Of a stretch of 64,000 nucleotides of DNA, positions 4,053-59,869 are shown piece after piece. Origin of the DNA: Candidatus Aminicenantota bacterium (GTDB lineage: Bacteria; Acidobacteriota; Aminicenantia; S016-38); NCBI GenBank assembly GCA_027068075.1, contig JAMOUJ010000006.1, positions 124,001-188,000 on the forward strand. Direction: 5' to 3'. A program made the translations under genes and the position numbers. How positions within the stretch are numbered: the first letter of the stretch is position 1; every line of letters begins with the position of its first letter. The notes below the pieces were generated by a model that worked only from the letters and a program-made list of their open reading frames with translations, ran no database searches and was not told where the DNA came from.

Positions 4053-4510
4053 GGCTTTTCTGGGAAGCGGTTAAAGGCTTGAGGGTAACGGCAAGACACC
4101 TTCTCCGCAACCTGTGGAAGTTTTCCCTTTACTATGTGGGATTGAGCAAGGACAAGGGGGTTGTTACCTTAGAGTACCCGGAGGAGAGGCGGGAGACCTT
4201 TCCCCGGGTGAGGCTCCGCCACAGGCTCCTCCGCCGGGAGGACGGCAGGCTCCGTTGCGTGGCCTGTTTTCTCTGCGCCACCGCCTGTCCTGCCCGGTGC
4301 ATATACATAGAGGCCGAGGAGGACCCGGACCATCCCCTGGAAAAGAAACCCCGCCAGTTTGTAATAGACCTGGGAAAATGCGCCTACTGCGGCTTCTGCG
4401 TGGAGGCCTGTCCCGAGGACGCCCTGAGGATGGACCTTCACATTCCAGAACTAGCGGAATACAATAGAGACGATCTCCTCTACGACATAGAGAAACTTAC
4501 GAAGCCATGA
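4049..4510 (+). CDS. nuoI: NADH-quinone oxidoreductase subunit I (2x[4Fe-4S] ferredoxin)
   Basis: NuoI carries the two [4Fe-4S] clusters (N6a/N6b) that pass electrons towards the quinone site. The ATG at 4049 overlaps the nuoH stop and gives 153 residues, normal for the family; an upstream ATG in the same frame would add an unrelated tail. The cluster motifs are C70-C73-C76-C80 and C111-C114-C117-C121. The N-terminus (RHLLRNLWKF) fits the usual membrane-contact helix. The next gene overlaps by 4 nt and is a response regulator: no nuoJ-nuoN follow here. Confidence 0.95.
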   Translation: MRLFWEAVKGLRVTARHLLRNLWKFSLYYVGLSKDKGVVTLEYPEERRETFPRVRLRHRLLRREDGRLRCVACFLCATACPARCIYIEAEEDPDHPLEKKPRQFVIDLGKCAYCGFCVEACPEDALRMDLHIPELAEYNRDDLLYDIEKLTKP

Positions 4511-5193
4511 GAAAAGTTCTTATAGTTGACGACGAAGCCGAGGTTCTGGAGTCCCTGAAGAGGGAACTGGAGAAGGACAGGAAACTCTATCGGGTGGAAT
4601 TCGCCTCCGGAGCGGAGGAAGCCCTGGAAAAACTTGAGAAATACCACTACGACCTCCTTATAACCGACATAAGGATGCCGGGGATGGACGGGGTGGAACT
4701 CCTGGCGGAGTTGTTGAACCGGGGAAAATGGGTTCATGTGATGGTGGCTTCCGGGGAAACCACCATGAGGATGATAAGGCCCGACAAAATGAAGGCCCTG
4801 GAGAAATTCGGGGTTCTCAAATACATATTCAAGCCCTATGTGCCCAGCAGTTTAAGGAAACTCATCCGGGAGACCTTGGAAAAAATAGGAGACCCCGACT
4901 ACATTTCCGGAATATCCCTCCCCACCCTGCTTCAGGTCATGGAACTGGAGGCCAAGTCCGGCGTCCTCAGGGTGAGGTCCGGGAAGAGGGAGGGGGCCCT
5001 CTTCTTCAGCCAGGGGGCTCTGGTGGACGCCATAAGCGGCAGGAAGACCGGCACCGAAGCCGCCCTGGAAATACTCTCCTGGGACAAGGTCAGGGTTCAA
5101 ATTGAATACCTCTTCCCGGCCCGGGAGAGGACCATCAAAAAATCCCTGGGCTATTTGATTCTGGAAGCGGCCAAGAGGAAGGATGAAAGTTAA
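4507..5193 (+). CDS. response regulator: receiver domain plus DUF4388 (PatA-like) output
   Basis: Residues 1-120 form a CheY-like receiver domain with acidic pair D8-D9, phosphoacceptor D54 in ITDIRMPGMDG, the S82 switch position and K109 in FKPY. Residues 135-228 match the DUF4388/PatA N-terminal-type domain, with ISLPTLLQVMELEAKSG then an RSGKREGALFF strand. There is no DNA-binding domain, so the output is probably protein-protein signalling. It overlaps nuoI by 4 nt and ispD by 11 nt and must be co-expressed with them. No partner kinase gene is next to it. The only kinase-like sequence in the window is the PurN fusion at 57660-58889, and a link between them is speculative. Confidence 0.85.
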   Translation: MRKVLIVDDEAEVLESLKRELEKDRKLYRVEFASGAEEALEKLEKYHYDLLITDIRMPGMDGVELLAELLNRGKWVHVMVASGETTMRMIRPDKMKALEKFGVLKYIFKPYVPSSLRKLIRETLEKIGDPDYISGISLPTLLQVMELEAKSGVLRVRSGKREGALFFSQGALVDAISGRKTGTEAALEILSWDKVRVQIEYLFPARERTIKKSLGYLILEAAKRKDES

Positions 5194-32616: not shown

Positions 32617-33681
32617 ATGGGCTTTCGCATCCTGGCCATAAATCCTGGTAGCACCTCCACCAAAATAGCCTATTTTGAGGACGAAAAGCAAATTTTCAAG
32701 GAGAGTCTTTACCACCCCAGAGAGGAGTTGGAAAAATACGAGAGAATCGTTGACCAGTACGAGTTCCGCCTCAAGGTAATTTTGAAATTTCTGGAGGATA
32801 AGGAAATAACCCAACTTGACGCCGTGGTGGGAAGGGGAGGGCTCTTGAAGCCCATCCCCGGAGGCACTTACCGGGTAAACGAAGCCATGCTTCGGGACTT
32901 GAGAATCGGGGTTCAGGGGGAGCACGCCTCCAATCTGGGCGGAATTTTGGCCTACGAGATCGCCAAAAAATACGGTGCGGAGGCCTTCATAGTGGACCCG
33001 GTGGTGGTGGACGAGATGGAACCCATAGCCAAGATTTCCGGACTTCCTGAGATAGAGCGGCGGTCCATTTTCCACGCCCTCAATCAGAAGGCGGTGGCCC
33101 GTCTTGCCGCCAGGGACCTGGGGAAAACCTACGAAGAGGTTAACCTCATCGTGGTTCACCTGGGCGGGGGAATTTCGGTGGGGGTCCACCGCCGGGGAAG
33201 GGTGGTGGATGTGAACAACGCCCTCAACGGGGACGGTCCCTTCGCCCCGGAAAGGGCCGGAGGTCTCCCTGTGTGGGATGCCATGAAACTGGCCCTTTCG
33301 GGGAAGTATAGCGAAGCGGAACTCAAGAAAAAACTGGCGGGGAAGGGGGGTGTGGTGGCCTACCTGGGGACCAACAACATGAAGGAGGTGGAGGAGAGGG
33401 TGAAGTCCGGGGACGGAAGGGCCCGACTCATATTTGAGGCCATGGCTTATCAGGTGGCCAAGGAGGTAGGAGCCGACGCCACGGTTCTCAAGGGGAAGGT
33501 GGACGCCGTAGTCCTCACCGGGGGCCTTGCCTACTCCGACCTCTTCGTCTCCTGGGTGAAGGAGAGGATTTCCTTCATAGCCCCGGTTATGGTCTATCCC
33601 GGAGAAGATGAAATGAGAGCCCTGGCATGCGGGGCCCTGAGGGTGCTCCGTGGAGAGGAACAGGCAAAAGAATATTCGTGA
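32617..33681 (+). CDS. buk: butyrate kinase (acyl-phosphate kinase)
   Basis: Buk converts an acyl phosphate and ADP into the free acid and ATP. The 354-residue ASKHA-fold protein shows the phosphate-1 loop [48 protein letters not shown] and the adenosine-binding [10 protein letters not shown]. Start ATG 32617 has a Shine-Dalgarno; an ATG at 32610 is out of frame. It lies with ptb and the iorAB oxidoreductase, so the physiological substrate may be an aryl- or branched-chain acyl phosphate and not butyryl phosphate. Confidence 0.93.
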
Positions 33682-33698
33682 ATACAAGGAGGATTGAT

Positions 33699-34601
33699 AT
33701 GGTAGTGAGAAAACTGGAGGACCTGGAGGAACTGGTCAGAGGAAGGGAAAAGAAAACCCTTGCCGTTGCCCGGGGACAGGACCCCAACACCATAGAGGCG
33801 GTGGCAAGGGCGGTTCAGGAGGGATTGGTAAACGCCATAATGGTGGGCGAGCGGGAAAAGATAGAGTCCCTGGCCCGGGAGAAGGGCATTGACCCTTCCA
33901 TCTTTGAGTATGTGGAGGAAAAGGACGAGGCGACCTGCGCCAAAAAGGCCGTCCAACTGGTTCACGACGGCCGGGCCCACATGGTCATGAAGGGGTTGGT
34001 AAGCACCATTTACTACATGAAGGCCATCCTGGACAAGCAGAACGGCCTTCTTCCGCCGGGGAAGGTTCTCTCCCATGTTACCCTGGTGGAAGTCCCCACC
34101 TACCACAAACTTCTCATCATGTCCGATGTGGCGGTGATTCCCCATCCCACCCTGGAGCAGAAAATAGCCATGCTCAAGTACTGCATTGATGTGGCCCACA
34201 AGATAGGGATTGAAAAGCCCAAGGCGGCCATAATAGCCGCCAACGAGAAGGTTTCCGATAAGGTTCCCGCCACGGTGGACGCCGCCATAATCTCCGTCAT
34301 GGCCAAGAGGGGGCAGATAAAGGGTGCCATAGTGGACGGTCCCCTGGCCATTGACATAGCCTACTCCAAGGAATCCGCCCGGATAAAAGGGGTTGACTCC
34401 CCGGTGGCTGGGGATGCGGACATCCTGATTTTCCACGACATTGAAGCGGGAAATGCCGTCTTTAAAACCATAACCTACCTTGCCCACGGTAAAATTGCCG
34501 CCGTAGTGGCAGGGGCCAAGGCTCCGGCCATCCTGACCTCCCGCTCCGACGACGACGATTCCAAGTTCTATTCTATCCTGATGGCCGCCATCATGGCGTA
34601 A
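33699..34601 (+). CDS. ptb: phosphate butyryl/acyltransferase (first copy)
   Basis: Ptb exchanges the CoA of an acyl-CoA for phosphate. The ATG at 33699 (after AAGGAGGA) gives 300 residues, normal for the family. RGREKKTLAVARGQDPNT at the N-terminus, ANEKVSDKVPATVDAAI in the middle, GAIVDGPLAIDIAYS and DIEAGNAVFKTITYLA near the C-terminus are family marks. The next gene starts 9 nt downstream. A second, more divergent copy is at 36990-37889. Confidence 0.93.
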   Translation: MVVRKLEDLEELVRGREKKTLAVARGQDPNTIEAVARAVQEGLVNAIMVGEREKIESLAREKGIDPSIFEYVEEKDEATCAKKAVQLVHDGRAHMVMKGLVSTIYYMKAILDKQNGLLPPGKVLSHVTLVEVPTYHKLLIMSDVAVIPHPTLEQKIAMLKYCIDVAHKIGIEKPKAAIIAANEKVSDKVPATVDAAIISVMAKRGQIKGAIVDGPLAIDIAYSKESARIKGVDSPVAGDADILIFHDIEAGNAVFKTITYLAHGKIAAVVAGAKAPAILTSRSDDDDSKFYSILMAAIMA

Positions 34602-34610
34602 GGAGGAACG

Positions 34611-36434
34611 ATGAAGAAAGCCATTTTGTCTGGAAACGAAGCCATAGCCCGGGGATTCTGGGAAGGGGGAGGGCATTTCGCCAACGCCTATCCCGGGACT
34701 CCCTCCACCGAGATTCTTGAAAGCATGGTCCAGTATCCGGAAATAAGGGCCCAGTGGGCGGTGAACGAAAAAACCTCCCTGGAGATCGCCCTGGGGGCCT
34801 CCTTTGCCGGTGCCCGCTCCTTAGTGGCCATGAAGCATGTGGGCCTCAATGTGGCGGCGGACCCCTTCTTCTCCGCCAGTTACATCGGGGCCACGGGCGG
34901 ACTTCTGGTGGTGACCTGCGACGACCCCGGGATGCACAGTTCCCAAAACGAGCAGGACAACCGCTGGTATGCCCTTCACGCCAAGGTTCCCATGTTTGAA
35001 CCCACCGACTCCCACGAGGCCAAGGAATTGACCAGGCAGGCCCTTTCCCTCAGCGAAAAATTTGACACCCCCTGGCTTATCCGCTCCACCACCAGGATTT
35101 CCCACTCCCTCTCCATCGTGGAACTGGGGGAAAGGGAGGAGGTGGAGATAAAGGGCTACGAGCCGGATTTTGAAAAAAGAAATCTCCTTCCGGTAAACGC
35201 CAGAAAGCGCCACGAGGTGGTGGAGGAGAGAACCCTGAAACTCAGGGAGTTCGCCGAGAACTTCTGGGGAAACCGCATAGAGGAAGGGGATCCCTCCATT
35301 GGAATAGTGGCCAACGGAATTTCCTATCAGCACGCCAAGGAGGTCTTTCCAGAGGCCACCTTCCTCAAACTCCTGATGACCTGGCCCCTTCCCGACGAAC
35401 TCATAAGGGAATTCGCCTCTAAGGTGAAAAAGATATTCGTGGTGGAGGAAGGGGACCCCTACCTGGAAACCTACCTCAGGGCCATGAACCTGGGGGTTGA
35501 GATTATCGGCAAGGAGAAAATCCCCATGACCGGGGAACTTAACCCCACCATAGTCCGGGAGGCCCTCACCGGCGAGAAGCCCTCCTATTTTGAAATTCCC
35601 AAAATTCCCCACAGGCCACCGGCCCTCTGCCCAGGCTGTCCCCACACCCCGGTCTTCTACATACTCAAGAGGCTAAAGGCCAATGTCACGGGGGACATTG
35701 GGTGCTACACCTTAGGAGCACTCCCTCCACTTTCGGCCATGGACACCTGCGTGGAAATGGGGGGAAGCGTGGGCAACGCCTATGGAATAGAAATAGCCGA
35801 GGCCATGCGCGGCCTTGACCCCAGGAAGAAAAAATTGGTGGCGGTAATCGGAGACTCCACCTTCTACCACTCCGGAGTTACCCCCCTCATAGACCTTTTC
35901 TACAACAACGGAATAACCACGGTGATAATCCTTGATAACTCCATAACCGCCATGACCGGACACCAGGAAAACCCGGGCTCCGGCGTGACCCTCAAGGGAG
36001 TTCCCGGAAGAAGGGTGGACCTGGAAAAACTGGTGCGGGGAATTGGGGTGGAGCATGTCTACACCGTGGACAGTTTTGACATGAAGACCCTGAAGGAGGT
36101 CATAAACAGAGAAATACACAGGAACGAGCCTTCGGTGATAATCGCCAAGCGGCCCTGCGTCCTTCTTCCCCAGATGAAGAAGCGCAAGTACACCTACGCC
36201 ATCGCCGACCCTGAAAAGTGCACCTCCTGCACCCTTTGCTGGAAACTGGGCTGTCCCGCCATTTCCGTAACCAAGGATAAAAAGACCTGGATCAACCCTG
36301 ACCTCTGCGTTGGATGCGAGGTCTGTATAGATGTTTGTCCCGTGGACGCCATTTACCTGGCCGATCCCAATGCGGACAACGCAAGAAAAGCAGGAGAGGA
36401 GGTATTAGGATGGGTAAAGAAACAAGAACAGTGA
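34611..36434 (+). CDS. iorA: indolepyruvate ferredoxin oxidoreductase, alpha subunit
   Basis: IorA oxidatively decarboxylates aryl-pyruvates, made by transamination of Trp, Phe or Tyr, to aryl-acetyl-CoA while reducing ferredoxin. The 607-residue protein has the N-terminal domain with NAYPGTPSTEILE, the thiamine diphosphate domain with PGCPHTPVFYIL, GDIGCYTLGALPPL and GDSTFYHSGVTPLID, and two C-terminal [4Fe-4S] clusters, CTSCTLCWKLGCP and CVGCEVCIDVCP. It overlaps iorB by 25 nt. The buk/ptb neighbours would turn the product into an acid plus ATP. Confidence 0.95.
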   Translation: MKKAILSGNEAIARGFWEGGGHFANAYPGTPSTEILESMVQYPEIRAQWAVNEKTSLEIALGASFAGARSLVAMKHVGLNVAADPFFSASYIGATGGLLVVTCDDPGMHSSQNEQDNRWYALHAKVPMFEPTDSHEAKELTRQALSLSEKFDTPWLIRSTTRISHSLSIVELGEREEVEIKGYEPDFEKRNLLPVNARKRHEVVEERTLKLREFAENFWGNRIEEGDPSIGIVANGISYQHAKEVFPEATFLKLLMTWPLPDELIREFASKVKKIFVVEEGDPYLETYLRAMNLGVEIIGKEKIPMTGELNPTIVREALTGEKPSYFEIPKIPHRPPALCPGCPHTPVFYILKRLKANVTGDIGCYTLGALPPLSAMDTCVEMGGSVGNAYGIEIAEAMRGLDPRKKKLVAVIGDSTFYHSGVTPLIDLFYNNGITTVIILDNSITAMTGHQENPGSGVTLKGVPGRRVDLEKLVRGIGVEHVYTVDSFDMKTLKEVINREIHRNEPSVIIAKRPCVLLPQMKKRKYTYAIADPEKCTSCTLCWKLGCPAISVTKDKKTWINPDLCVGCEVCIDVCPVDAIYLADPNADNARKAGEEVLGWVKKQEQ

Positions 36435-37003
36435 TAGTGGCGGGGGTTGGAGGGCAGGGAATCCTGCTGGCGTCCAACCTTCTGTCCGAGGCTGCCATGG
36501 AGGCAGGCTACGATGTAAAGAAATCCGAAATACACGGAATGAGCCAGAGGGGAGGGGATGTCATTTCCACGGTGAGGTTCGGGGAGAAGGTTTATTCCCC
36601 CATAGTGGGGCTTGCCGGCGCCGATGTTATCTTAGCCTTTGAAAAATTAGAGGCCATGAGGAACCTTCCCTATCTCAAAAAGGACGGCACCGTCATCGTC
36701 AACGACTACAGAATAGACCCCCTTCCCGTGGCCTCCGGCTACATGGACTATCCCGAGGGCATCATAGAATACCTCAGGGAGAGGGTTAAGACCATCTCCC
36801 TGGATGCACGGCAGTTGGCTGAAAAGGCGGGCAACATAAAGACCATGAATGTGGTCATGCTGGGGGTCCTTTCCAAGAGTTTGGACATCCCCGAGGAGAT
36901 ATGGCTCCGGGTGATAGAAAGGAGGGTTCCCAAAAAGGCCATAGAGGCCAACAAAGTGGCCTTCAGGCTTGGGAGGGAGGTTGCGGAAAATGCTGAACTT
37001 TGA
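36410..37003 (+). CDS. iorB: indolepyruvate ferredoxin oxidoreductase, beta subunit
   Basis: IorB is the gamma-type domain partner of IorA, using CoA. Start ATG 36410 gives 197 residues; the longer frame upstream lies inside iorA. VAGVGGQGILLASNLLSEAA and SEIHGMSQRGGDV are the family marks. It overlaps iorA by 25 nt and ptb2 by 14 nt, so all three are translationally coupled. Confidence 0.95.
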   Translation: MGKETRTVIVAGVGGQGILLASNLLSEAAMEAGYDVKKSEIHGMSQRGGDVISTVRFGEKVYSPIVGLAGADVILAFEKLEAMRNLPYLKKDGTVIVNDYRIDPLPVASGYMDYPEGIIEYLRERVKTISLDARQLAEKAGNIKTMNVVMLGVLSKSLDIPEEIWLRVIERRVPKKAIEANKVAFRLGREVAENAEL

Positions 37004-37889
37004 GGCTATAAGAAAGAGGGCCGGGGAAAAGGGCCCGGTGCCCGTGGCAATCCCCTGGGCCATGGACAAAACAGCGGTTCTTGCCGCATACAAAGCGGAA
37101 AGGCTGGGGATAGCCTACCCATTCCTCATCGGAGAGAGAAGCAAAATAGAGGAACTCCTCAGAGAATACGCCCCGGATATGGAAGCGGAGATAGTGGAGG
37201 CCGCAAGTTTAGAGGAGGCAGCAGCCAAGGCAGTTTCCTTAGCCCGCGAAGGAAAAGTTAAAGTTCTCCTTAAAGGCGCCTTAAGGACCGACCAATTCCT
37301 CCGCCCTGCCTTAGATAGGGAAAAGGGCCTGCGGACAGACCGCCTCCTTTCCGATGTGTTTTTCACCGAGGACCCGCTTCACAACAGGGAGCGCCTTATA
37401 GGAATGAGCGACGGTGGGGTAAACATCGCCCCTGACTTAAACGCAAAAATTCAAATTGTAAAAAACGCCATAGAGGCCTTCCACAAACTTGGAGTAGCAA
37501 AGCCCAAGGTGGCCCTCCTTGCCGCCGTGGAGGTTGTAAACGAGAAAATGCCAGCCACCGTTGACGCAGCGGAGATAAGGAAAATGTGGGAGAAAGGCGA
37601 ATTTCCCGAAAGCATAATAGAAGGCCCCATGGCCCTTGATATAGCAGTAAGCCGCGCCGCCGCAGAGAAGAAAAAATTTAAGTCCGAAATTGCCGGAGAT
37701 GTGGATATATTCATAGTCCCCAACATAGAGGCAGGAAACATCTTCGGAAAATCCTTCACCTACTACATGCACCTTCCCGTGGGCCACATAATCATGGGCG
37801 CCAGAGTTCCCCTTCTTATCCCCTCCCGCACCGAATCCGACGAGGACAAGCTGAATTCCATCGCTTTGGGGTGTTTAGTGGGAGCGTAG
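36990..37889 (+). CDS. phosphate acyltransferase, Ptb-like (second, divergent copy)
   Basis: The ATG at 36990, with GGGAGG about 13 nt upstream, gives 299 residues; a TTG at 36969 is a possible longer start. VPVAIPWAMDK at the N-terminus, NEKMPATVDAAEI, IEGPMALDIAVS and NIEAGNIFGKSFTYYM near the C-terminus mark it as a member of the phosphate acetyl/butyryltransferase family. It is clearly diverged from the first copy, for example AVEVVNEKMPATV against AANEKVSDKVPATV. Having two copies around one oxidoreductase suggests that they serve different acyl-CoAs. It ends the operon; base composition shifts to AT-rich after it. Confidence 0.88.
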   Translation: MLNFEAIRKRAGEKGPVPVAIPWAMDKTAVLAAYKAERLGIAYPFLIGERSKIEELLREYAPDMEAEIVEAASLEEAAAKAVSLAREGKVKVLLKGALRTDQFLRPALDREKGLRTDRLLSDVFFTEDPLHNRERLIGMSDGGVNIAPDLNAKIQIVKNAIEAFHKLGVAKPKVALLAAVEVVNEKMPATVDAAEIRKMWEKGEFPESIIEGPMALDIAVSRAAAEKKKFKSEIAGDVDIFIVPNIEAGNIFGKSFTYYMHLPVGHIIMGARVPLLIPSRTESDEDKLNSIALGCLVGA

Positions 37890-38153: not shown

Positions 38154-38157
38154 ATGA
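37957..38157 (+). CDS. short hypothetical ORF before the restriction gene (66 codons)
   Basis: This AT-rich frame ends with an ATGA overlap onto the endonuclease gene. The overlap is the only reason to consider it. The peptide has no recognised domain, no HTH and no clear Shine-Dalgarno. It could be a leader or control peptide of the restriction operon, but chance is as likely. Confidence 0.22.
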   Translation: MRLEKSLKQKEMIYNCTQDGILSESFGNPLKLALYPNSLDMNELGVIGRCGLEKRLLNNISRVVKL

Positions 38158-39953
38158 GAAAACCATGGTCAATTTCAACAACTGTTAGAAATCCTGAAAG
38201 ACTAAGGGGCTTTCTAAAAGTTTTAAAACAGCTTGAAGGTGAAGATTTTATAAAGGAAAATCAGATCAAATATCAAATCCTTTTGATTAAAGAGAGGCTT
38301 TATAAACCAAATAATATTCCCCAGAAATATCAAAAATATTATGATGATCCTACTCTTGAGATTCCTTTTTCAGTAGCGAAAAATATTTTTGAATATCAAA
38401 ACTACAAAGATCCTCCTATGAGAGGCCGACAATCAGTAAATCCTTTGAATAAGTTGGGTTTTGCTATTGCAAGAGAAGGATATGGTCCGATTAAAATCAC
38501 AAAGTTAGGTAATTTATTTTTGAAAGGAGATTACGATATTGGTTTTATTTTCTTCAAGAGCTTATTGAAACTTCAATTTCCCAATCCATGGAGTAAGGAT
38601 TTTTCAGAGAAACAGGGATTCGACATTGTACCATTTATTGCAACACTTAGATTAATAAAGGATTTGAATAAAAAAAGTAAAATTAAAGGTTTAAGTAGAG
38701 ATGAGTTCTGTTTATTCATTCCAACTTTAATAAATGCTGAATATATCGATGAACAGATAAGGAAAATTTTATTATATAGAAAAATCAGCGGTAAAGTGAA
38801 TAAAAGAAAATTTATTATAAAATTTGCAGAAGAATTCTATGAAACATCCGAGATACCAGAAAAGAAAATAAATAATCTCTTTGATTACGGTGATAATACA
38901 ATGAGATATTTTAGGCTTACAAGATATTTTAGAATAGAAACAGACCCGTTAGGCTATCATTGGAGAATTGATTTGGAACCCTCAAGAATGATTGAAATAG
39001 AACAACTACTGTCTATATATGATGGAACTGCGTTTAAATTTAAGGACATTTCTGAGTATTTAAGTTATATTTCAGATATAACTAAACCGACTTTACCATG
39101 GGAAAAAATAGAGAATCTAAAAAATATAGCCTTAAACATTCGTAAATTATTTATTGAAACATTAGAAAAAGAAAAAGTCACAATATCAGAAGCAGAAATG
39201 AAAATTCTAAATATTGACATAAACGCCCTTGATAAGACATCTCTGGAGAAATATATCTCAAATTTGAGAGAATTAAATAAAAAATTAAAACTTTATATAA
39301 AGAAAAAGCAATTGCTTGGAAATATAGATAAGATTAAGGAAATAATAGAAATACTGGAAAATCAGAGATTATTAAGAAAAATTGAGCCAGAAACTTTTGA
39401 AAGAATACTTGCCGAAGCTCTAAAGATAATCAACGACGAACTTTTAATAAAACCGAACTATCCTATGGATGATGAAGGGGAACCCCTAACTCATGCACCT
39501 GGAAACAAACCTGATATAGAATGTTATTATGAAACTTTTAAAGCAATATGCGAAGTTACCCTTAATACTTCGAGTCTTCAATGGGTACAAGAAGGACAAC
39601 CTGTTATGAGACATTTAAGAGACTTTGAAAGAATTAATGGTTTTGATGAGAATATTTATTGCATATTCGTAGCTCCAAAGGTACACAGAGATACATATTC
39701 TCAATTTTGGTTTTCAGTAAAATATGAGTATGATGGAAGACCTCAAAAGATAATCCCACTCACTGCCAAACAATTTGCACTACTTCTTAAAAAATTGTTG
39801 AGATATATTGAAAATGGGAAAAAGTTTACACACCATGAATTGTATAAGTTATACGATTTATTGGTAAAAGAAACTACAACGATTGGTAGTTTTTCTGAAT
39901 GGGCTAAAAGAATAAATAAAGTTTTGGAGTTATGGGTGGAGGAAAAAATATGA
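38154..39953 (+). CDS. type II (IIS) restriction endonuclease, AlwI family
   Basis: The 599-residue protein begins RKPWSISTTVRNPERLRGFL, followed by ENQIKYQILLIKERLY, which is the hallmark of the AlwI/PleI/MlyI-type endonucleases (RE_AlwI family). The PD-(D/E)XK-like core near residues 452-470 reads KPDIECYYE...ICEVTLNTS, with a further GQPVMRHLRDFE. Such enzymes cut a few bases outside asymmetric sites such as GGATC or GAGTC. The exact site here is not readable from sequence. It overlaps the first methyltransferase by 4 nt (ATGA). Codon use is AT-rich, unlike the flanks. Confidence 0.85.
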   Translation: MRKPWSISTTVRNPERLRGFLKVLKQLEGEDFIKENQIKYQILLIKERLYKPNNIPQKYQKYYDDPTLEIPFSVAKNIFEYQNYKDPPMRGRQSVNPLNKLGFAIAREGYGPIKITKLGNLFLKGDYDIGFIFFKSLLKLQFPNPWSKDFSEKQGFDIVPFIATLRLIKDLNKKSKIKGLSRDEFCLFIPTLINAEYIDEQIRKILLYRKISGKVNKRKFIIKFAEEFYETSEIPEKKINNLFDYGDNTMRYFRLTRYFRIETDPLGYHWRIDLEPSRMIEIEQLLSIYDGTAFKFKDISEYLSYISDITKPTLPWEKIENLKNIALNIRKLFIETLEKEKVTISEAEMKILNIDINALDKTSLEKYISNLRELNKKLKLYIKKKQLLGNIDKIKEIIEILENQRLLRKIEPETFERILAEALKIINDELLIKPNYPMDDEGEPLTHAPGNKPDIECYYETFKAICEVTLNTSSLQWVQEGQPVMRHLRDFERINGFDENIYCIFVAPKVHRDTYSQFWFSVKYEYDGRPQKIIPLTAKQFALLLKKLLRYIENGKKFTHHELYKLYDLLVKETTTIGSFSEWAKRINKVLELWVEEKI

Positions 39954-40744
39954 AAATCAATCATATTTATAAAGGTGATTGCATCAAAGTAATGAAAAAG
40001 CATATTCCAAACGAGAGTGTAGACCTAATTTACGCAGATCCTCCATATAATCTATCTGGAAAAAGTTTGAACCTTATCAATAATAAAACAGGTGGACCAT
40101 TTTACAAAATGAACGAGGATTGGGATACTTGGGATTATGACGAATATTTAAAATTTTCAGAGGACTGGATAAAAGAAGCGTGGAGAGTTTTGAAGCAAAA
40201 TGGAAGTTTATATGTTTCTTGTACTCTCCATAATATTGGTGAGCTAATAGTTATAGCTAAAAAGGCTGGTTTTAAATTAAATAATATAATAACATGGTAT
40301 AAAACAAATGCTATGCCTAATATAACTAAAAGGACTTTTACCCATTCTACAGAATATGTTTGTTGGTTTGTTAAAGGGAAAAAATGGAAATTCAATTATG
40401 AGGAGTTAAAAAAAATAAACCCTCATAAAACAAAAGATGGAAAATCTAAGCAAATGAGAGATTTTTTGGATTTTGTAGAACTTCCTTTAGTGCAGGGAAA
40501 GGAAAGAATAAAAGGAAAAAATGGAAGGGCAATTCATCCAACACAAAAACCCGAAAAATTGTTAGAGATTATAATCGTTGCGTCTTCAGATACCGGCGAT
40601 ATAGTATTGGATCCTTTCTTCGGAACAGGAACTACAGGAGTTGTGGCCCAAAGGTTAAAACGAAATTGGATAGGTATAGAGATAAATGAGAAATATATTA
40701 AAGTGGCAAAAAAAAGAATATATGGGGGTAAACAAAATGCCTGA
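39950..40744 (+). CDS. site-specific DNA methyltransferase, beta class (first of two)
   Basis: The ATG at 39950 (after GGAGG) gives 264 residues. The catalytic motif DPPYNLSG is at residues 30-37 and the SAM-binding FxGxG motif is at the C-terminal end (DPFFGTGTTG, near 220), the order of beta-class N6-adenine or N4-cytosine methyltransferases. The HPTQKPEKLLE motif precedes the SAM region. It is placed between the endonuclease and a second methyltransferase, overlapping each by a few bases. Two methylases are expected for an asymmetric site, one per strand. Confidence 0.93.
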   Translation: MKINHIYKGDCIKVMKKHIPNESVDLIYADPPYNLSGKSLNLINNKTGGPFYKMNEDWDTWDYDEYLKFSEDWIKEAWRVLKQNGSLYVSCTLHNIGELIVIAKKAGFKLNNIITWYKTNAMPNITKRTFTHSTEYVCWFVKGKKWKFNYEELKKINPHKTKDGKSKQMRDFLDFVELPLVQGKERIKGKNGRAIHPTQKPEKLLEIIIVASSDTGDIVLDPFFGTGTTGVVAQRLKRNWIGIEINEKYIKVAKKRIYGGKQNA

Positions 40745-41522
40745 AATAAAACTTATTCTCGGAGATTGTTTAGTGGAATTAAAAAAACTTAAGGCGGAGA
40801 GTGTGGATTTGGTTTTTGCAGACCCGCCTTACAACCTTTCAGGAGAAAACCATCGTACAGTCCACGCAGGAAAACCAGTTAAACTTGATAAAGGTGATTG
40901 GGATAAGATAGAAAACATTCATGAGTTTAATTTGAAATGGATAAAGGAATGTATTAGGGTTCTAAAACCACATGGAACTATATGGATTTCTGGCACATTA
41001 CATAATCACCCCTCAATAGGAATGGCGCTTAAAGAATTGGGACTCTGGATAATAAATGATGTAGTATGGTATAAACCAAATGCCACTCCTTTACTTTCAA
41101 AAAATAGACTTGTTCCTTCCACTGAAATCATATGGGTGGCAAGTAAAAGTAAAAAATATTATTTTAACTATGAATTAGCCAAAAAAATTAATTATGGAAA
41201 GCAAATGAGAAATTTATGGATAATAAAAGCAAAAAAACACATAACCCCACATCCAACTGAGAAGCCAGAAGAGTTATTAGAGAGAATTATATTGATAGGA
41301 AGTAAAGAAGGAGATACAATTCTTGATCCTTTCATGGGCTCAGGGACTACTGGAGTGGTTGCTAAAAGATATAACCGCAATTTTATAGGTATTGAAATTA
41401 AGCCTGAGTATTTTCAGTGGGCAAAAGAAAGAATAGAAAAAACAGAAGTAAAAATTAGCCTATTTTCTAATTTTGAACATAAAAAACAATTAAAGATTCC
41501 TATAAGTGAGGATTTAAAATGA
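40737..41522 (+). CDS. site-specific DNA methyltransferase, beta class (second of two)
   Basis: The ATG at 40737 (261 residues) overlaps the first methylase by 8 nt and is preceded by GGGGGT. DPPYNLSG at 29-36 and DPFMGSGTTG near 196 give the beta-class order; HPTEKPEELLERI lies before the SAM motif. It is related to the first methylase but distinct, supporting separate strand specificity. The C-terminus ends with a Lys-rich tail. Confidence 0.93.
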   Translation: MPEIKLILGDCLVELKKLKAESVDLVFADPPYNLSGENHRTVHAGKPVKLDKGDWDKIENIHEFNLKWIKECIRVLKPHGTIWISGTLHNHPSIGMALKELGLWIINDVVWYKPNATPLLSKNRLVPSTEIIWVASKSKKYYFNYELAKKINYGKQMRNLWIIKAKKHITPHPTEKPEELLERIILIGSKEGDTILDPFMGSGTTGVVAKRYNRNFIGIEIKPEYFQWAKERIEKTEVKISLFSNFEHKKQLKIPISEDLK

Positions 41523-41684
41523 CCTCGCACCATGAGATCTCCCGTTTGATATTACTCACTTCGCGGCTATTGCCTACGCCTGACAATTGTGTATATAGCT
41601 TAGACTGTAGATTTCGCCCCAATTCATGCTTCGACCTGACTTCGGTTATCCCTTTGTTATATAGCCTGCTGACAAGTAAATAGG
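41523..41684. other. intergenic gap between methyltransferase and nuclease-like gene
   Basis: This 162-base spacer has short dyads but no gene, tRNA or clear terminator. TTATAT (about 41656-41662) could be a -10 box for the following gene, whose ATG has only a weak AGG before it. Confidence 0.3.
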
Positions 41685-43889
41685 ATGAACGAAAATAGAA
41701 ATTTCGACGAAAAAGAGTGGAGAAATAAGCTAAGAGAAGGGCATGATTTCGCTTTGCGTAGAAAAAATAAAATTAAAGATGAGATTGAGAGTCTGATAGA
41801 AGAGGTTGATCCTGTAGGATTGCTTTCCTGTGTTTCTCTGATTTCTCAATTTTCTCTAGAAGGGAGGCTAGAATTAAATCAAGATTTGAGAGACAGACCC
41901 ATCCTGCATTTTTTGACTGGTCTTTGTTTGAAAAACGGAATTCATTCTAATAGACCTCCCACTAATCAAGAAATAGAGGAAATTATAGAGTTGACGAAAG
42001 AATACTTTGACTATTACCTGCAGGACCTTATTTTTCAGACTTCAAAAAAGGAACAGGTTTCGGCAATTAGTGGTCTAATATTATCCGCGAGACTTCAAAA
42101 GATAATTAGTCAGATAAATTCGAGTATTTACCTGTTTCAGTTAGAAGACTTCTTAACAAGTGTTTTTAGTAAGCTCGATAATTACTTTGTCAAAAAAGTT
42201 GGTTTCTCTGTAGCAGATGCATTGAATTTTGGACAGAAAATTATTGAAAGATATGTGCGGCTTTTGAATAAACGCTTTGAAGAATCCATAGATGCTATAG
42301 AAAAAACAAAACGGGAATTAAAAGATCCGATAAAAGGTGCTCAACTTCAGGAAACTCTTAGAAAGAAGAATCTTACCGAAGAAGATTTTATGAAATTATA
42401 TTTTAACTTTTTGATGTTTTCATCAACACAAGAGATATTTATATTTACAGCAGACGAATTCTGTAAAAATGAAAAAATAAAAGAAACGGAAAAATTTGAG
42501 AGTTATCTAAAAGCATTAAGTTGCGAGTTTGGTGAGGTAAATAAAGATTTTGATTCTCCCTTGGATGAAAATGCTATTATTACAAAGCCAATAATTAACA
42601 TTGACGGTATTAGATATTTTTCTCCTATTCCTCAAGATCTGATTTTCAACTTACCTATCATTTTTGAGAGCTTTTTAGAAGAAGAGAAACAAAAGCAGAC
42701 GAAAATCTGGCAAAGATATCAGAATCTAAGATCTCAATATACTGAAAATAAAATTTATGAGTATTTCTCACGCTTATTTCCTGAGAAGAACATATTTAAA
42801 AATTTAAAATATTGCTATCAGGGACAAGAATTTGAAGTAGATTTATTAGTACTCTATGACAATAAAATATTTATTGTCGAATCAAAAGCGGGAGCTTTTA
42901 CAGAACCGGCTAAGCGTGGTGCCATTAAGCGGCTAAAGACCGACTTAAAAAAGCTAATTGAAGATGCCTATCAGCAAGGGAGACGGGTAAGAGACTATAT
43001 AAAATCTATTAAAACCGCAGTTTTCAAAGACAAAAATGGTAAAGAAGTGTTGGATATCAAATATAAGCCCAATAAGATTGACTTTTTCTTGATTAATGTA
43101 ACTCTTGAACCCTTAATGAGCTTGGCAACGGGCTTAAAACAATTGCAATCATTAGGTTTGTTTGAGAGAAATGAGTATCCTTGGTCAGTGAATCTTTTTG
43201 AATTGGATCTTATAACAAGACATATTCCTTCTCCAACCATTTTTATCCATTATTTAGAAAAACGCTTATCAGCACAGGATGAGAATATATTTCACGCTTT
43301 TGACGAGCTAAGTTTCCTTGCTTGGTACTTGGAAAGAGGAAATTTTTATGTCCCTGAAATTGATGGGGGCGAAAAGCCTGACCTCGTTCAACTGGATGGA
43401 AGCTTAGTTGCTGTATTTGATGATCACTATTTGTACGGTAAAGAGGCTCCCCAATTAAAAATTGAGCCTGATCTTGTTAAGGTGATAAAGATATTGGAAG
43501 AATTACGGCCAATTGGATTTACGAATATAGCGAGTGCTTTGTTGGATTTTGATCATCAAGCCAGAGAATTGATCTTGAAAAATGTGAATGAACTCATTAG
43601 GAAAACCAAAAAAGATAGGGGAAAGCATGATTTTACAGTGCTCTACAAAGAAGCGCTTAATACAGGGTTTACCTTCATGACCCAGTATGGGAGAAAGGGT
43701 TTAAAAGATAGATTAATTTCCTATTGTGCAATAAAGAAGTACCAAACAAAGACTAAAAGATGGATAGGATTGGGGAGGGACGTTTCAGATGATGAATGGT
43801 TCATAAACGAGTTTGTGTTTTTGGATTTTCCATGGAAAAGAGATAGAAAGATGGATGAGTTACTAAAAAAATATCCGATTAAAAAATAA
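41685..43889 (+). CDS. large PD-(D/E)XK nuclease-like protein of unknown function
   Basis: I do not recognise a named family for the whole 734-residue protein. Its centre carries a nuclease-fold signature of the NERD/Mrr type: TENKIYEYF near residue 352, then EFEVDLLVLYD (D near 386) and IFIVESKAGAF (E-x-K near 398-400). Residues 1-340 are mostly helical and 430-734 mixed, with LSFLAWYLERGNFY and a C-terminal FVFLDFPWKRD. There is no helicase or ATPase domain and no membrane segment. It lies alone after the restriction-modification genes in AT-rich DNA, which suggests a defence or mobile-element role. That is inference from position. Confidence 0.7.
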   Translation: MNENRNFDEKEWRNKLREGHDFALRRKNKIKDEIESLIEEVDPVGLLSCVSLISQFSLEGRLELNQDLRDRPILHFLTGLCLKNGIHSNRPPTNQEIEEIIELTKEYFDYYLQDLIFQTSKKEQVSAISGLILSARLQKIISQINSSIYLFQLEDFLTSVFSKLDNYFVKKVGFSVADALNFGQKIIERYVRLLNKRFEESIDAIEKTKRELKDPIKGAQLQETLRKKNLTEEDFMKLYFNFLMFSSTQEIFIFTADEFCKNEKIKETEKFESYLKALSCEFGEVNKDFDSPLDENAIITKPIINIDGIRYFSPIPQDLIFNLPIIFESFLEEEKQKQTKIWQRYQNLRSQYTENKIYEYFSRLFPEKNIFKNLKYCYQGQEFEVDLLVLYDNKIFIVESKAGAFTEPAKRGAIKRLKTDLKKLIEDAYQQGRRVRDYIKSIKTAVFKDKNGKEVLDIKYKPNKIDFFLINVTLEPLMSLATGLKQLQSLGLFERNEYPWSVNLFELDLITRHIPSPTIFIHYLEKRLSAQDENIFHAFDELSFLAWYLERGNFYVPEIDGGEKPDLVQLDGSLVAVFDDHYLYGKEAPQLKIEPDLVKVIKILEELRPIGFTNIASALLDFDHQARELILKNVNELIRKTKKDRGKHDFTVLYKEALNTGFTFMTQYGRKGLKDRLISYCAIKKYQTKTKRWIGLGRDVSDDEWFINEFVFLDFPWKRDRKMDELLKKYPIKK

Positions 43890-56919: not shown

Positions 56920-57663
56920 ATGAGTAGACTGTTTGCTTTGATGGCGGAAGAGGTGGTGGATGTCAGTTTCGTGGTCCTCCACCCTGGAGCCACGGATAAG
57001 GTGGTTTCTCAACTCAGGGAGGGTGTGGGACTCGGTTGGTACGAGAAGGAAGGAATTCATTCGGTGAGACTGGTTGGCATACAGCCCGCTGAACTGTGGC
57101 GCCTGGCGGAGACCATCCATTCCAGAATCGTCCTCTTCCACGCCAGAAGAAGAACCGTGGGAGACGCAGAGGTCATAAACACCCATCCTTTCACCTACGG
57201 AAAGTTCATGTTCATTCACGGTGGAACCCTCCGCAACTGGAAGGCCCTGGAGGAGGCCCTCCTGCCGGAGTGGCGGGAAAAACTACAGGGAGATACGGAC
57301 AGTGAAAGGCTTTTCTTCTTCCTGCTTCAAAACATTGAAGGAGACATCCTGCCGGGCCTCAAGCAGGCGGTGGAGAAGGTGAGGGAGATTACCGATTACG
57401 ACTACATGAACTTCATACTATCCGACGGGGAGTCCCTTTACGCCTATTCCAGCGGAGAGAGACCCCTTTACTTCTGGAAGGGAAAGGTGGAGGAGGAACT
57501 CTGCTGCTCTTCCCTGGTGGAGAACATCGCCGTAAGGTCCAGGGGCCTGGTGGGCAAGAGGGCGGTGGTGGTTTCCGGCCAGAAGTTTCAGATGGAAGGC
57601 TGGCAGACCCTTTCCGGTTCCTTTCTGAGGGTGAGACCTACCCTGGATGTGGAGATTCTTTAA
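56920..57663 (+). CDS. class II glutamine amidotransferase-like protein with Ser in place of the catalytic Cys
   Basis: The 247-residue protein matches the Ntn-hydrolase amidotransferase domain (YafJ/EgtC group). It starts MSRLFALMAE where the family starts MCRLF, so the N-terminal nucleophile is Ser2. The blocks IVLFHARRRTVG and INTHPFTYGKFMFIHGG follow, but the usual HNG is HGG (residues 100-102), so the oxyanion-hole Asn is Gly. SDGESLYAYSSG near 170 is normal. Either Ser works as nucleophile on another substrate or the protein is non-catalytic. It is a single gene with its own promoter and converges on purN with a 4-nt overlap. Confidence 0.83.
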   Translation: MSRLFALMAEEVVDVSFVVLHPGATDKVVSQLREGVGLGWYEKEGIHSVRLVGIQPAELWRLAETIHSRIVLFHARRRTVGDAEVINTHPFTYGKFMFIHGGTLRNWKALEEALLPEWREKLQGDTDSERLFFFLLQNIEGDILPGLKQAVEKVREITDYDYMNFILSDGESLYAYSSGERPLYFWKGKVEEELCCSSLVENIAVRSRGLVGKRAVVVSGQKFQMEGWQTLSGSFLRVRPTLDVEIL

Positions 57664-58889
57664 CCCTCCAGAATGGGAAGCCTTATGGTAAGGTGAACCC
57701 TTCCCTCCTTCTCCCAGAGGGTTACATTTCCCGCATAGGCCCTGGTAACTACTCCGTGAACCAGGGTCAGACCCAGTCCCGTTCTTCCCCAGGTGGAGAA
57801 GAAGGGTTCAAAGGCCCTTTCTTCGGCTTCCCTTTCCAGGGGGCCGCGGTTTGAAACCTCCAGGACCACATGCTGGTCTTCCCTTCGCAGGGAAGCCCTC
57901 ACCTCTCCCATCCTTTCGGCGTTGTCCTTTATTTCCCGGAGCACCAGGGAAAAGAGGGCCCTGTCCACGGGAAATCCCAGGTGAGGATAATCTCCGGGAA
58001 ATAGGGAGGTCACCAGGGCCCCGATGTCCACCTCCTGCCCCAGTTCGTCCTTGCGGAAGCCGAAGACCTCCGTGGTTTTGGCGAGGAGGTCCGAAGCCTC
58101 CACCGCCGGGCGAAATATGGCCTCTGCGGAGGAATTACCTTGAAGTTGAAGGAGTTGGGCCCGGGCTATTACCGATGTGAGTTTGTTGTTGGCCTTGTGG
58201 ATTATGGAGGAAAACAAAGCCGACGAGGCCTTGCTGTGGAAGCCCCGGTAGAGAAGGGCCACCCGCCCCTGTTTTTCTTCTTCCCCTTTTATGTAAACCC
58301 TTTGGCCCTGGACCTCCAGTTTACCCTCCAGAAAAAGCCTTACGGCTTCGGGGTATATCCTGTGCTCCTCCCTTAATATTCTTTCTGATAGACTTTCTTC
58401 GGTGTCGTCCTGGTATACGGGCACCACGGCCTGGAGGATCACGGGGCCGCTGTCCACCCCTTCGTCCACGAAGTGGACGGTGGCTCCACTGAACCTTACC
58501 CCGTAATCCACCGCCTGCTTCTGGGCGTGGAGACCGGGAAAAGAAGGAAGAAGGGCAGGGTGGATGTTCATTATTTTCAGCGGAAATTTTCGGATGAATT
58601 CCGGTGAGAGGATCCTCATGTAGCCCGCCAGGCAGATGAGGTCTATCTTCCTCTCTTCAATGGCCCTGGCCATGGCCAGGTCAAAGGACACCCTGTCCGG
58701 GTAATCCTTCCTCCGGAAGTAGAGGGTTTCTATGCCGTATTCCCTGGCGGAGGCGGCTCCAGGGGCATTTTTTTTGTCGGTGATAACCAGAACTATTTCC
58801 CCGGGAATTTTTCCTTCCCTGGTGGCTCTGTAAAGGGCCCTGAAGTTGGAACCCCTGCCGGAAAGCAGGACGGCTATCCTTCCCTTCAT
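57660..58889 (-). CDS. purN: phosphoribosylglycinamide formyltransferase fused to a histidine-kinase-like module
   Basis: Residues 1-200 form an intact PurN, which formylates GAR in purine synthesis: LLSGRGSNF at 8-16, N108 and H110 in IMNIHPALLPSFPG, and D146 in DEGVDSGPVI. After a short linker, residues 215-409 resemble a histidine kinase: an H-box-like SIIHKANNKLTSV (H231), an N box with N323, an F box AFEPFFST, and GRTGLGL (368-374). The G1 box is SNRGP in place of D-x-G-x-G. The ATG at 58889 overlaps the purM stop (ATGA). The frame is continuous, and the ATG further upstream lies inside purM. Normal PurN proteins end near residue 200. Confidence 0.88.
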   Translation of the reverse strand: MKGRIAVLLSGRGSNFRALYRATREGKIPGEIVLVITDKKNAPGAASAREYGIETLYFRRKDYPDRVSFDLAMARAIEERKIDLICLAGYMRILSPEFIRKFPLKIMNIHPALLPSFPGLHAQKQAVDYGVRFSGATVHFVDEGVDSGPVILQAVVPVYQDDTEESLSERILREEHRIYPEAVRLFLEGKLEVQGQRVYIKGEEEKQGRVALLYRGFHSKASSALFSSIIHKANNKLTSVIARAQLLQLQGNSSAEAIFRPAVEASDLLAKTTEVFGFRKDELGQEVDIGALVTSLFPGDYPHLGFPVDRALFSLVLREIKDNAERMGEVRASLRREDQHVVLEVSNRGPLEREAEERAFEPFFSTWGRTGLGLTLVHGVVTRAYAGNVTLWEKEGRVHLTIRLPILEG

Positions 58890-59869
58890 ATTATCTCTAC
58901 CCCCTCTCCCTTCTCCATTTTTCCTATAATCCAGAAATCCTCTCCCCTTTCCCTGAGGTAGTCCTTCAGGCCATCCTTCCCCACGATTATCATGCCGATG
59001 CCCATGTTGAAACTCCTGTAGGCCTCCTCTTCGCTGACCCCTCCCTTTTCCACCAGAAACCTGAAGATCTCCGGCACCGGCCATGTATCCTTTTTTATTA
59101 CGGCCTTGAGACCCGGGGGGATTATCCTGATGAGGTTTCCCGGTATCCCTCCCCCGGTTATGTGGGCCATGCCCTTTATCTTTTCCCTGGCATCTTTAAG
59201 CAAGGTGTAGTATTCCCTGTGGACCCTGAGGAGTTCGTCGGCAAAGGTGGTCTGCGGGTCCCAGGGCAGGGGGGTTTCCGGCTTGAGGCCCAGTTTCTCA
59301 AAGATTATCTTCCTGGCCAGGGAATATCCGTTGGTGTGGAGGCCGTTGGAGGGAAGCCCGATGAGTTCGTCCCCCTCCCTGATTTCGCTTCCGTCTATAA
59401 TCTTCCCCTCTATCTTTCCCACGATGAAACCCACCAGGTCGTATTCGCCTTCCCGGTAGAAGCCCGGCATCTCCGCCGTTTCTCCCCCCAGAATGAGGCA
59501 GTTCACCCGGGAGCAGGCCCTGGCAAAGCCGTCCATTATTTGACCCAGAACCTCCAGTTCCAGTTTTCCCATGGCGATGTAGTCCATGAAGAAAAGGGGA
59601 TCCGCTCCGTGGACGAATATGTCGTTTACGCAGTGGTTTACCAGGTCCTGGCCCACAGTATTGTGCCTTCCGGTCATAAAGGCCACCCGGAGTTTGGTGC
59701 CCACTCCGTCGGCACTGGCTATCAGGCGGGTTCCTCCGACTTCGTAAATCCCTCCGAAAAGGCCAAATTGGGAGGGGGAAACCCCGTATTTCTTTAAAGT
59801 TTCTCCTATGAGTTTAACCGCCCTTTCGGCCTTGTCCAGGTCAACTCCGGCTTCCCTGTAGGTTACCAT
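58886..59869 (-). CDS. purM: phosphoribosylformylglycinamidine cyclo-ligase (AIR synthetase)
   Basis: PurM closes the imidazole ring of AIR with ATP. The 327-residue protein has DGVGTKLRVAF, VNDIFVHGADPLFFMDY, LILGGETAEMPGFY and AHITGGGIPGNLIRI. It has GGAGGT before the ATG. It overlaps the peptidase gene by 7 nt and the purN fusion by 4 nt. PurM and PurN act two steps apart in the pathway and are often adjacent. Confidence 0.96.
   Translation of the reverse strand: MVTYREAGVDLDKAERAVKLIGETLKKYGVSPSQFGLFGGIYEVGGTRLIASADGVGTKLRVAFMTGRHNTVGQDLVNHCVNDIFVHGADPLFFMDYIAMGKLELEVLGQIMDGFARACSRVNCLILGGETAEMPGFYREGEYDLVGFIVGKIEGKIIDGSEIREGDELIGLPSNGLHTNGYSLARKIIFEKLGLKPETPLPWDPQTTFADELLRVHREYYTLLKDAREKIKGMAHITGGGIPGNLIRIIPPGLKAVIKKDTWPVPEIFRFLVEKGGVSEEEAYRSFNMGIGMIIVGKDGLKDYLRERGEDFWIIGKMEKGEGVEII

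Follow-up and report, generated by a model that had tools for sequence, protein, structure and literature searches.

The question raised by this locus is whether an enzyme of purine synthesis has been joined to a two-component signalling module and, if so, where that module came from and what it now does. The stretch of DNA analysed (the window; 64,000 nucleotides) belongs to the 1.9-Mb genome of a Candidatus Aminicenantota bacterium. On its reverse strand, a single uninterrupted frame (57660..58889 (-)) encodes a 409-aa protein, P0001, in which PurN (GAR formyltransferase) is followed by a histidine-kinase core. The frame, its coordinates and the residues N108, H110, D146 and H231 all agree with a preliminary description of the window. 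The gene lies downstream of purM (58886..59869 (-)) in the same operon and begins at 58889, within an ATGA that also contains the purM stop; the start of the longer open reading frame, at 59084, is not that of the gene. The stop codon overlaps a convergent gene (56920-57663) by 4 bp. The order purM, purN, kinase is common to the seven family genomes.

The PurN domain (residues 1-203; 58281..58889 (-)) scores 237.4 bits with TIGR00639 (cut-off 150.1; residues 4-192) and 196 bits with PF00551, and this half of the AlphaFold model matches the solved GAR transformylases 3auf and 2ywr. With N108, H110 and D146 intact, it is predicted to be catalytically complete, as had been proposed. Known PurN proteins of TIGR00639, such as 3auf and 2ywr, share with P0001 the whole domain, the catalytic residues and the purM-purN order, but lack the approximately 200 additional C-terminal residues that form the kinase core. 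None of the seven family genomes yielded a PurT above cut-off, which makes the fused PurN probably the sole GAR formyltransferase of the cell.

PurN is connected to the kinase core by a linker (residues 204-218; 58236..58280 (-)), which is modelled as a low-confidence helix (pLDDT 40-50) running into the first helix of the DHp domain (AlphaFold model m88b7e2f39cce). Alignments and AlphaFold place the DHp at residues 219-276 (58062..58235 (-)), predicted as a two-helix hairpin with the H-box HKANNKLT, in which H231 is the phospho-acceptor histidine, K232 the H+1 residue and N235 the H+4 residue. The CA (HATPase_c) domain (residues about 285-406; 57672..58037 (-)), assigned from PF02518, alignments and structure matches, contains an N-box (E319-x-x-x-N323), a G1 box (N347-R-G349), an F-box (360-364) and a GLGL G2 box (371-374). 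Relative to hybrid kinases, its first beta-strand region is about 16 aa shorter and the loop between N-box and strand about 8 aa shorter.

The preliminary description had named detection by the HATPase_c and HisKA profiles as a check on the kinase fold. The former detects it, with PF02518 scoring 35.3 bits on P0001 (gathering cut-off 26.4; residues 312-405) and 35-37 bits on the kinase part. The HisKA profile gives no match in P0001 itself; it passes the cut-off in a sister-genus homologue (L036; 30.0 versus 26.9 bits) and is sub-threshold in four others (L035, L038, L136 and L137). Structure prediction also recovers the fold. Modelled alone, the C-terminal part consists of two long helices and a mixed alpha/beta domain (mean pLDDT 85.8, pTM 0.75), and its PDB matches, among those listed, are histidine-kinase DHp-CA structures, including CckA 5idj (TM 0.68), ZraS, CpxA and ThkA. 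The full-length model, built with 30 family sequences, has a mean pLDDT of 82.5, with an uncertain orientation of PurN relative to the kinase core (whole-protein pTM 0.51).

The fusion is a real and conserved feature of one genus. It occurs at full length in all four species found, the source of the window and three others (G001-G003; 81, 75 and 75% identity to P0001), where it is likewise uninterrupted and retains H231. Together with the profiles and the structure, these intact relatives bear out the fusion first noticed in the preliminary description. All three sister-genus genomes have two separate genes that are translationally coupled, one for a PurN of 202-208 aa and one for a kinase of 300-307 aa, the kinase start overlapping the purN end. 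Pyruvate phosphate dikinase (PPDK) is encoded directly after the kinase gene in two of these genomes (G004 and G006), whereas in the fusion genus PPDK is located elsewhere in the genome. Across the other families examined, purN is a stand-alone gene with tyrS or other genes after it.

The sister-genus kinases begin with a stretch of about 85 residues in which the motif P-E-x-G-K-x-E-G is conserved (L036:1656-1931, L037:3713-3988, L038:6290-6565). This segment (80-90 residues) is missing from the fusion, and its interpretation as a GAF remnant found no support (hhalign E 0.28).

A profile of the seven family kinases revealed no further members in 142 genomes of the class, except two distant matches, and none among 396 genomes sampled from the phylum; a scan of viral sequences gave no match. 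A sequence-pattern scan of genome contigs responded mainly to the widespread F-box pattern, yielding 80 unrelated kinases but no named member of the family. A phylum survey of long PurN open frames was ambiguous because frames in high-GC genomes continue beyond the gene ends, so that PurN fusions to unrelated kinases may have escaped it. The open-access literature searched contained no earlier description of PurN fused to a histidine kinase; the architecture is new and genus-restricted, and its component parts are already known.

The two distant matches pointed to the source of the kinase core. They are 856-857 aa long and combine HDOD, HATPase_c and REC domains with a GAF-like region (a GAF_2 match below threshold in one), and both genes lie directly upstream of PPDK. 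Of 14 class homologues scanned, 12 have a PPDK-like frame next to the hybrid-kinase gene, and this neighbour recurs for homologues in families f2 and f5. It is possible that these are signalling genes linked to PPDK or to central carbon metabolism. The fusion, sister-genus and PPDK-linked kinases have in common a private H-box signature, H-K-x-[N/K]-N-K-[L/M]-T. In a tree of 138 kinase cores, with the 80 unrelated kinases of the contig scan as outgroups, the fusion and sister-genus kinases (family f1) form a single clade (support 1.0), which joins exactly the PPDK-linked kinases (0.93), the f2 ones being closest (0.77). Synteny, tree and signature all point to derivation of the kinase core from an HDOD-GAF-HisKA-HATPase-REC hybrid kinase encoded beside PPDK.

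Such hybrid kinases beside PPDK were observed in two families of the class (L136:5763-8336 and L138-L150), with lysine at H+1 throughout.

P0001 resembles these hybrids in H-box signature, fold and tree position and, by way of the sister genus, in gene neighbourhood. In contrast, HDOD, GAF and REC domains are absent from it, as from all family f1 kinases; its G1 box has Asn, the first Asn of the N-box is replaced by Glu, its CA domain is short and it is fused to PurN. The simplest history suggested by these genomes is one of reduction, coupling to purN and fusion, in that order. In the family ancestor, a hybrid kinase would have lost HDOD, GAF and REC, its CA domain would have been shortened, the G1 Asp replaced by Asn and the N-box Asn by Glu, and the reduced gene would have become coupled behind purN. 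In the fusion genus, the stop and the start would then have disappeared along with some 80 residues from the kinase N-terminus, yielding one protein in which PurN would occupy the position of a sensor. Taken alone, without a mechanism, the fusion and this origin are very probably correct.

What the module does is less certain, and the residues around its phospho-acceptor are the main guide. The histidine equivalent to H231 is present in 18 of 18 family sequences, as is Asn at H+4 (N235 in P0001); the N-box Asn, the G1 Gly and the F-box and G2 residues are also invariant across the family. H+1 is Lys in all 18 and in none of 119 other kinases (a non-random set made up of the F-box-pattern selection and the genome's own kinases), 113 of which have Asp or Glu. 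The lysine is ancestral to the subfamily, some members of which have an ordinary G1 box and carry a receiver themselves, and the subfamily may have a working chemistry of its own. HisKA_2/HWE kinases are active despite a basic H+1. In the HisKA kinases tested, the acid at H+1 is needed for kinase and not for phosphatase activity, the Thr or Asn at H+4 is needed for phosphatase and not for kinase activity, and H+1 mutants lost the former while retaining the latter (PMC3510030). By this rule, the Lys at H+1 and the conserved Asn at H+4 predict a core that is probably kinase-impaired and that would be competent as a phosphatase or docking element. The earlier suggestion that the module signals as a kinase is not supported, as H+1 is not the acid required for that activity (PMC3510030).

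We therefore favour, tentatively and at somewhat less than even likelihood, the joint proposition of fusion, hybrid-kinase origin and a kinase-impaired mechanism of phosphatase, phosphotransfer or docking. The module would still bind a purine nucleotide and dock a receiver; its target would be an unlinked response regulator, on which it would act chiefly by phosphatase activity, phosphotransfer or docking, and the ligand state of PurN could modulate it through the linker and the DHp dimer. A precedent is the pseudokinase DivL of Caulobacter, in which a histidine-kinase core without kinase activity is a receiver-binding element (PMC4211667). However, DivL has lost the histidine itself and has no fused metabolic enzyme, whereas P0001 keeps the histidine and has lost the acid at H+1.

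The G1 box bears on nucleotide binding. It reads N-x-G, without the second Gly, in all seven family f1 kinases, while Asp is found in 11 of 11 PPDK-linked kinases and 116 of the 119 others; within the subfamily, the Asp-to-Asn change is thus limited to f1 (7/7 versus 0/11). The preliminary description had singled out this N-x-G-x-P box as a change that might affect ATP binding. That the change is exceptional is not supported, since ThkA (Thermotoga maritima TM1359; 3a0t/3a0r), the best solved match to the kinase part by sequence, and VanS also have Asn and lack the second Gly, though ATP binding may be weak. The Asn of ThkA hydrogen-bonds adenine, VanS with its Asn G1 box binds ATP very weakly, and one kinase with the same substitution is reported to prefer GTP (PMC10017428). 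From these cases, the core of P0001 likely binds a nucleotide, and this binding may be weak or altered. Unlike P0001, ThkA has a PAS domain and VanS a membrane sensor region, neither is fused to PurN, and P0001 has Lys at H+1.

Retention of the nucleotide-site residues, together with loss of the REC and sensor domains and absence of the residue needed for kinase activity, would also suit a module that acts on PurN itself. It would sense ATP, ADP or GTP as end products, or dimerize PurN, with no phosphotransfer; feedback of this kind is plausible given the fusion to a purine enzyme. We regard this as somewhat unlikely, because the kinase is a separate protein in the sister genus and can thus work without being part of PurN, and because H231 and N235 are invariant though unnecessary for mere nucleotide binding.

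An active histidine kinase with PurN as its input would need a receiver, and the genome has about 14, most of which neighbour a kinase and about five of which do not; it also has 13 other HATPase_c places, GyrB included. The orphan receivers are located at C6:128516, C6:304765, C5:586550, C5:279943 and C5:160217. None of the receiver genes is linked to purN-HK. The REC-DUF4388 protein at 4507-5193, put forward earlier as a possible partner, is among the roughly five without a neighbouring kinase and is present in 4/4 genomes of the genus and at least two of three of the sister genus. It lies about 52 kb from the fusion gene and has no specific tie to the kinase core, so that this pairing lacks support. 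Comparison of the lost REC domain with the receivers of the genome gave generic matches of 21-37% only. Purine or one-carbon flux would in such a scheme lead to autophosphorylation of H231 and phosphorylation of a response regulator. The invariant H231 and nucleotide-box residues, the DHp-CA fold, the position of PurN where a sensor usually stands and the existence of orphan receivers are consistent with it. It is nonetheless unlikely, given the Lys at H+1 in all family members, a position at which HisKA mutants lost kinase activity (PMC3510030), a G1 Asn shared with the weakly ATP-binding VanS, and the loss of the core's own receiver with none linked in its place.

Selection on the two halves differs. 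Across the four fused genes, most pairs of which are near synonymous saturation, dN/dS is 0.15-0.26 in the kinase part and 0.04-0.07 in the PurN part; for the kinase part of the least diverged pair (dS 0.45), the value is 0.15. The kinase module is under purifying selection, less strict than that on PurN. It is doubtful that the fusion is a mere tether, in which coupled genes were joined by a deletion and both parts work as before with no mutual effect. The sister genus has the exact pre-fusion arrangement of overlapping genes, the PurN catalytic residues are unchanged and the linker is weakly structured, all of which such a reading would accommodate. Against it, the fusion is uninterrupted in four species despite near-saturated synonymous divergence, although this may reflect the lack of a reverse route.

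More doubtful still is a fully developed sensor role, in which occupancy of PurN by GAR or formyl-folate and the altered nucleotide site would together set the phosphatase/kinase output to an unlinked response regulator; at this site, replacement of the G1 Asp by Asn may shift the preference to GTP or make ATP bind less tightly. If this were true, purine synthesis would report its own state directly. An assembly or frameshift artefact, or a chance likeness to kinases, is most improbable, as four species in separate assemblies carry the fusion and profiles, structure, tree and dN/dS are concordant.

At this locus, a module of two-component signalling has become attached to an enzyme at the core of purine synthesis, and three stages of the process survive in extant relatives: the full hybrid kinase, the reduced coupled gene and the fusion. 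Should the module report on, or be controlled by, the purine state, it would constitute a direct enzyme-as-sensor link; should it only dock or dephosphorylate a receiver, it would be a clean case of a histidine-kinase core losing kinase function under selection.

Two other regions of the window were noted on inspection of the sequence. A low-GC island at 38154-43889 (30-34% versus about 55% around it) contains adjacent DNA methyltransferase-like genes (39932-40744 and 40686-41522) and two larger neighbours, and resembles a restriction-modification cluster gained by horizontal transfer. At 32617-37889, a pair of genes like those for indolepyruvate ferredoxin oxidoreductase is flanked by one gene resembling butyrate kinase and two resembling phosphotransacetylase/phosphotransbutyrylase, a possible amino-acid fermentation cluster.
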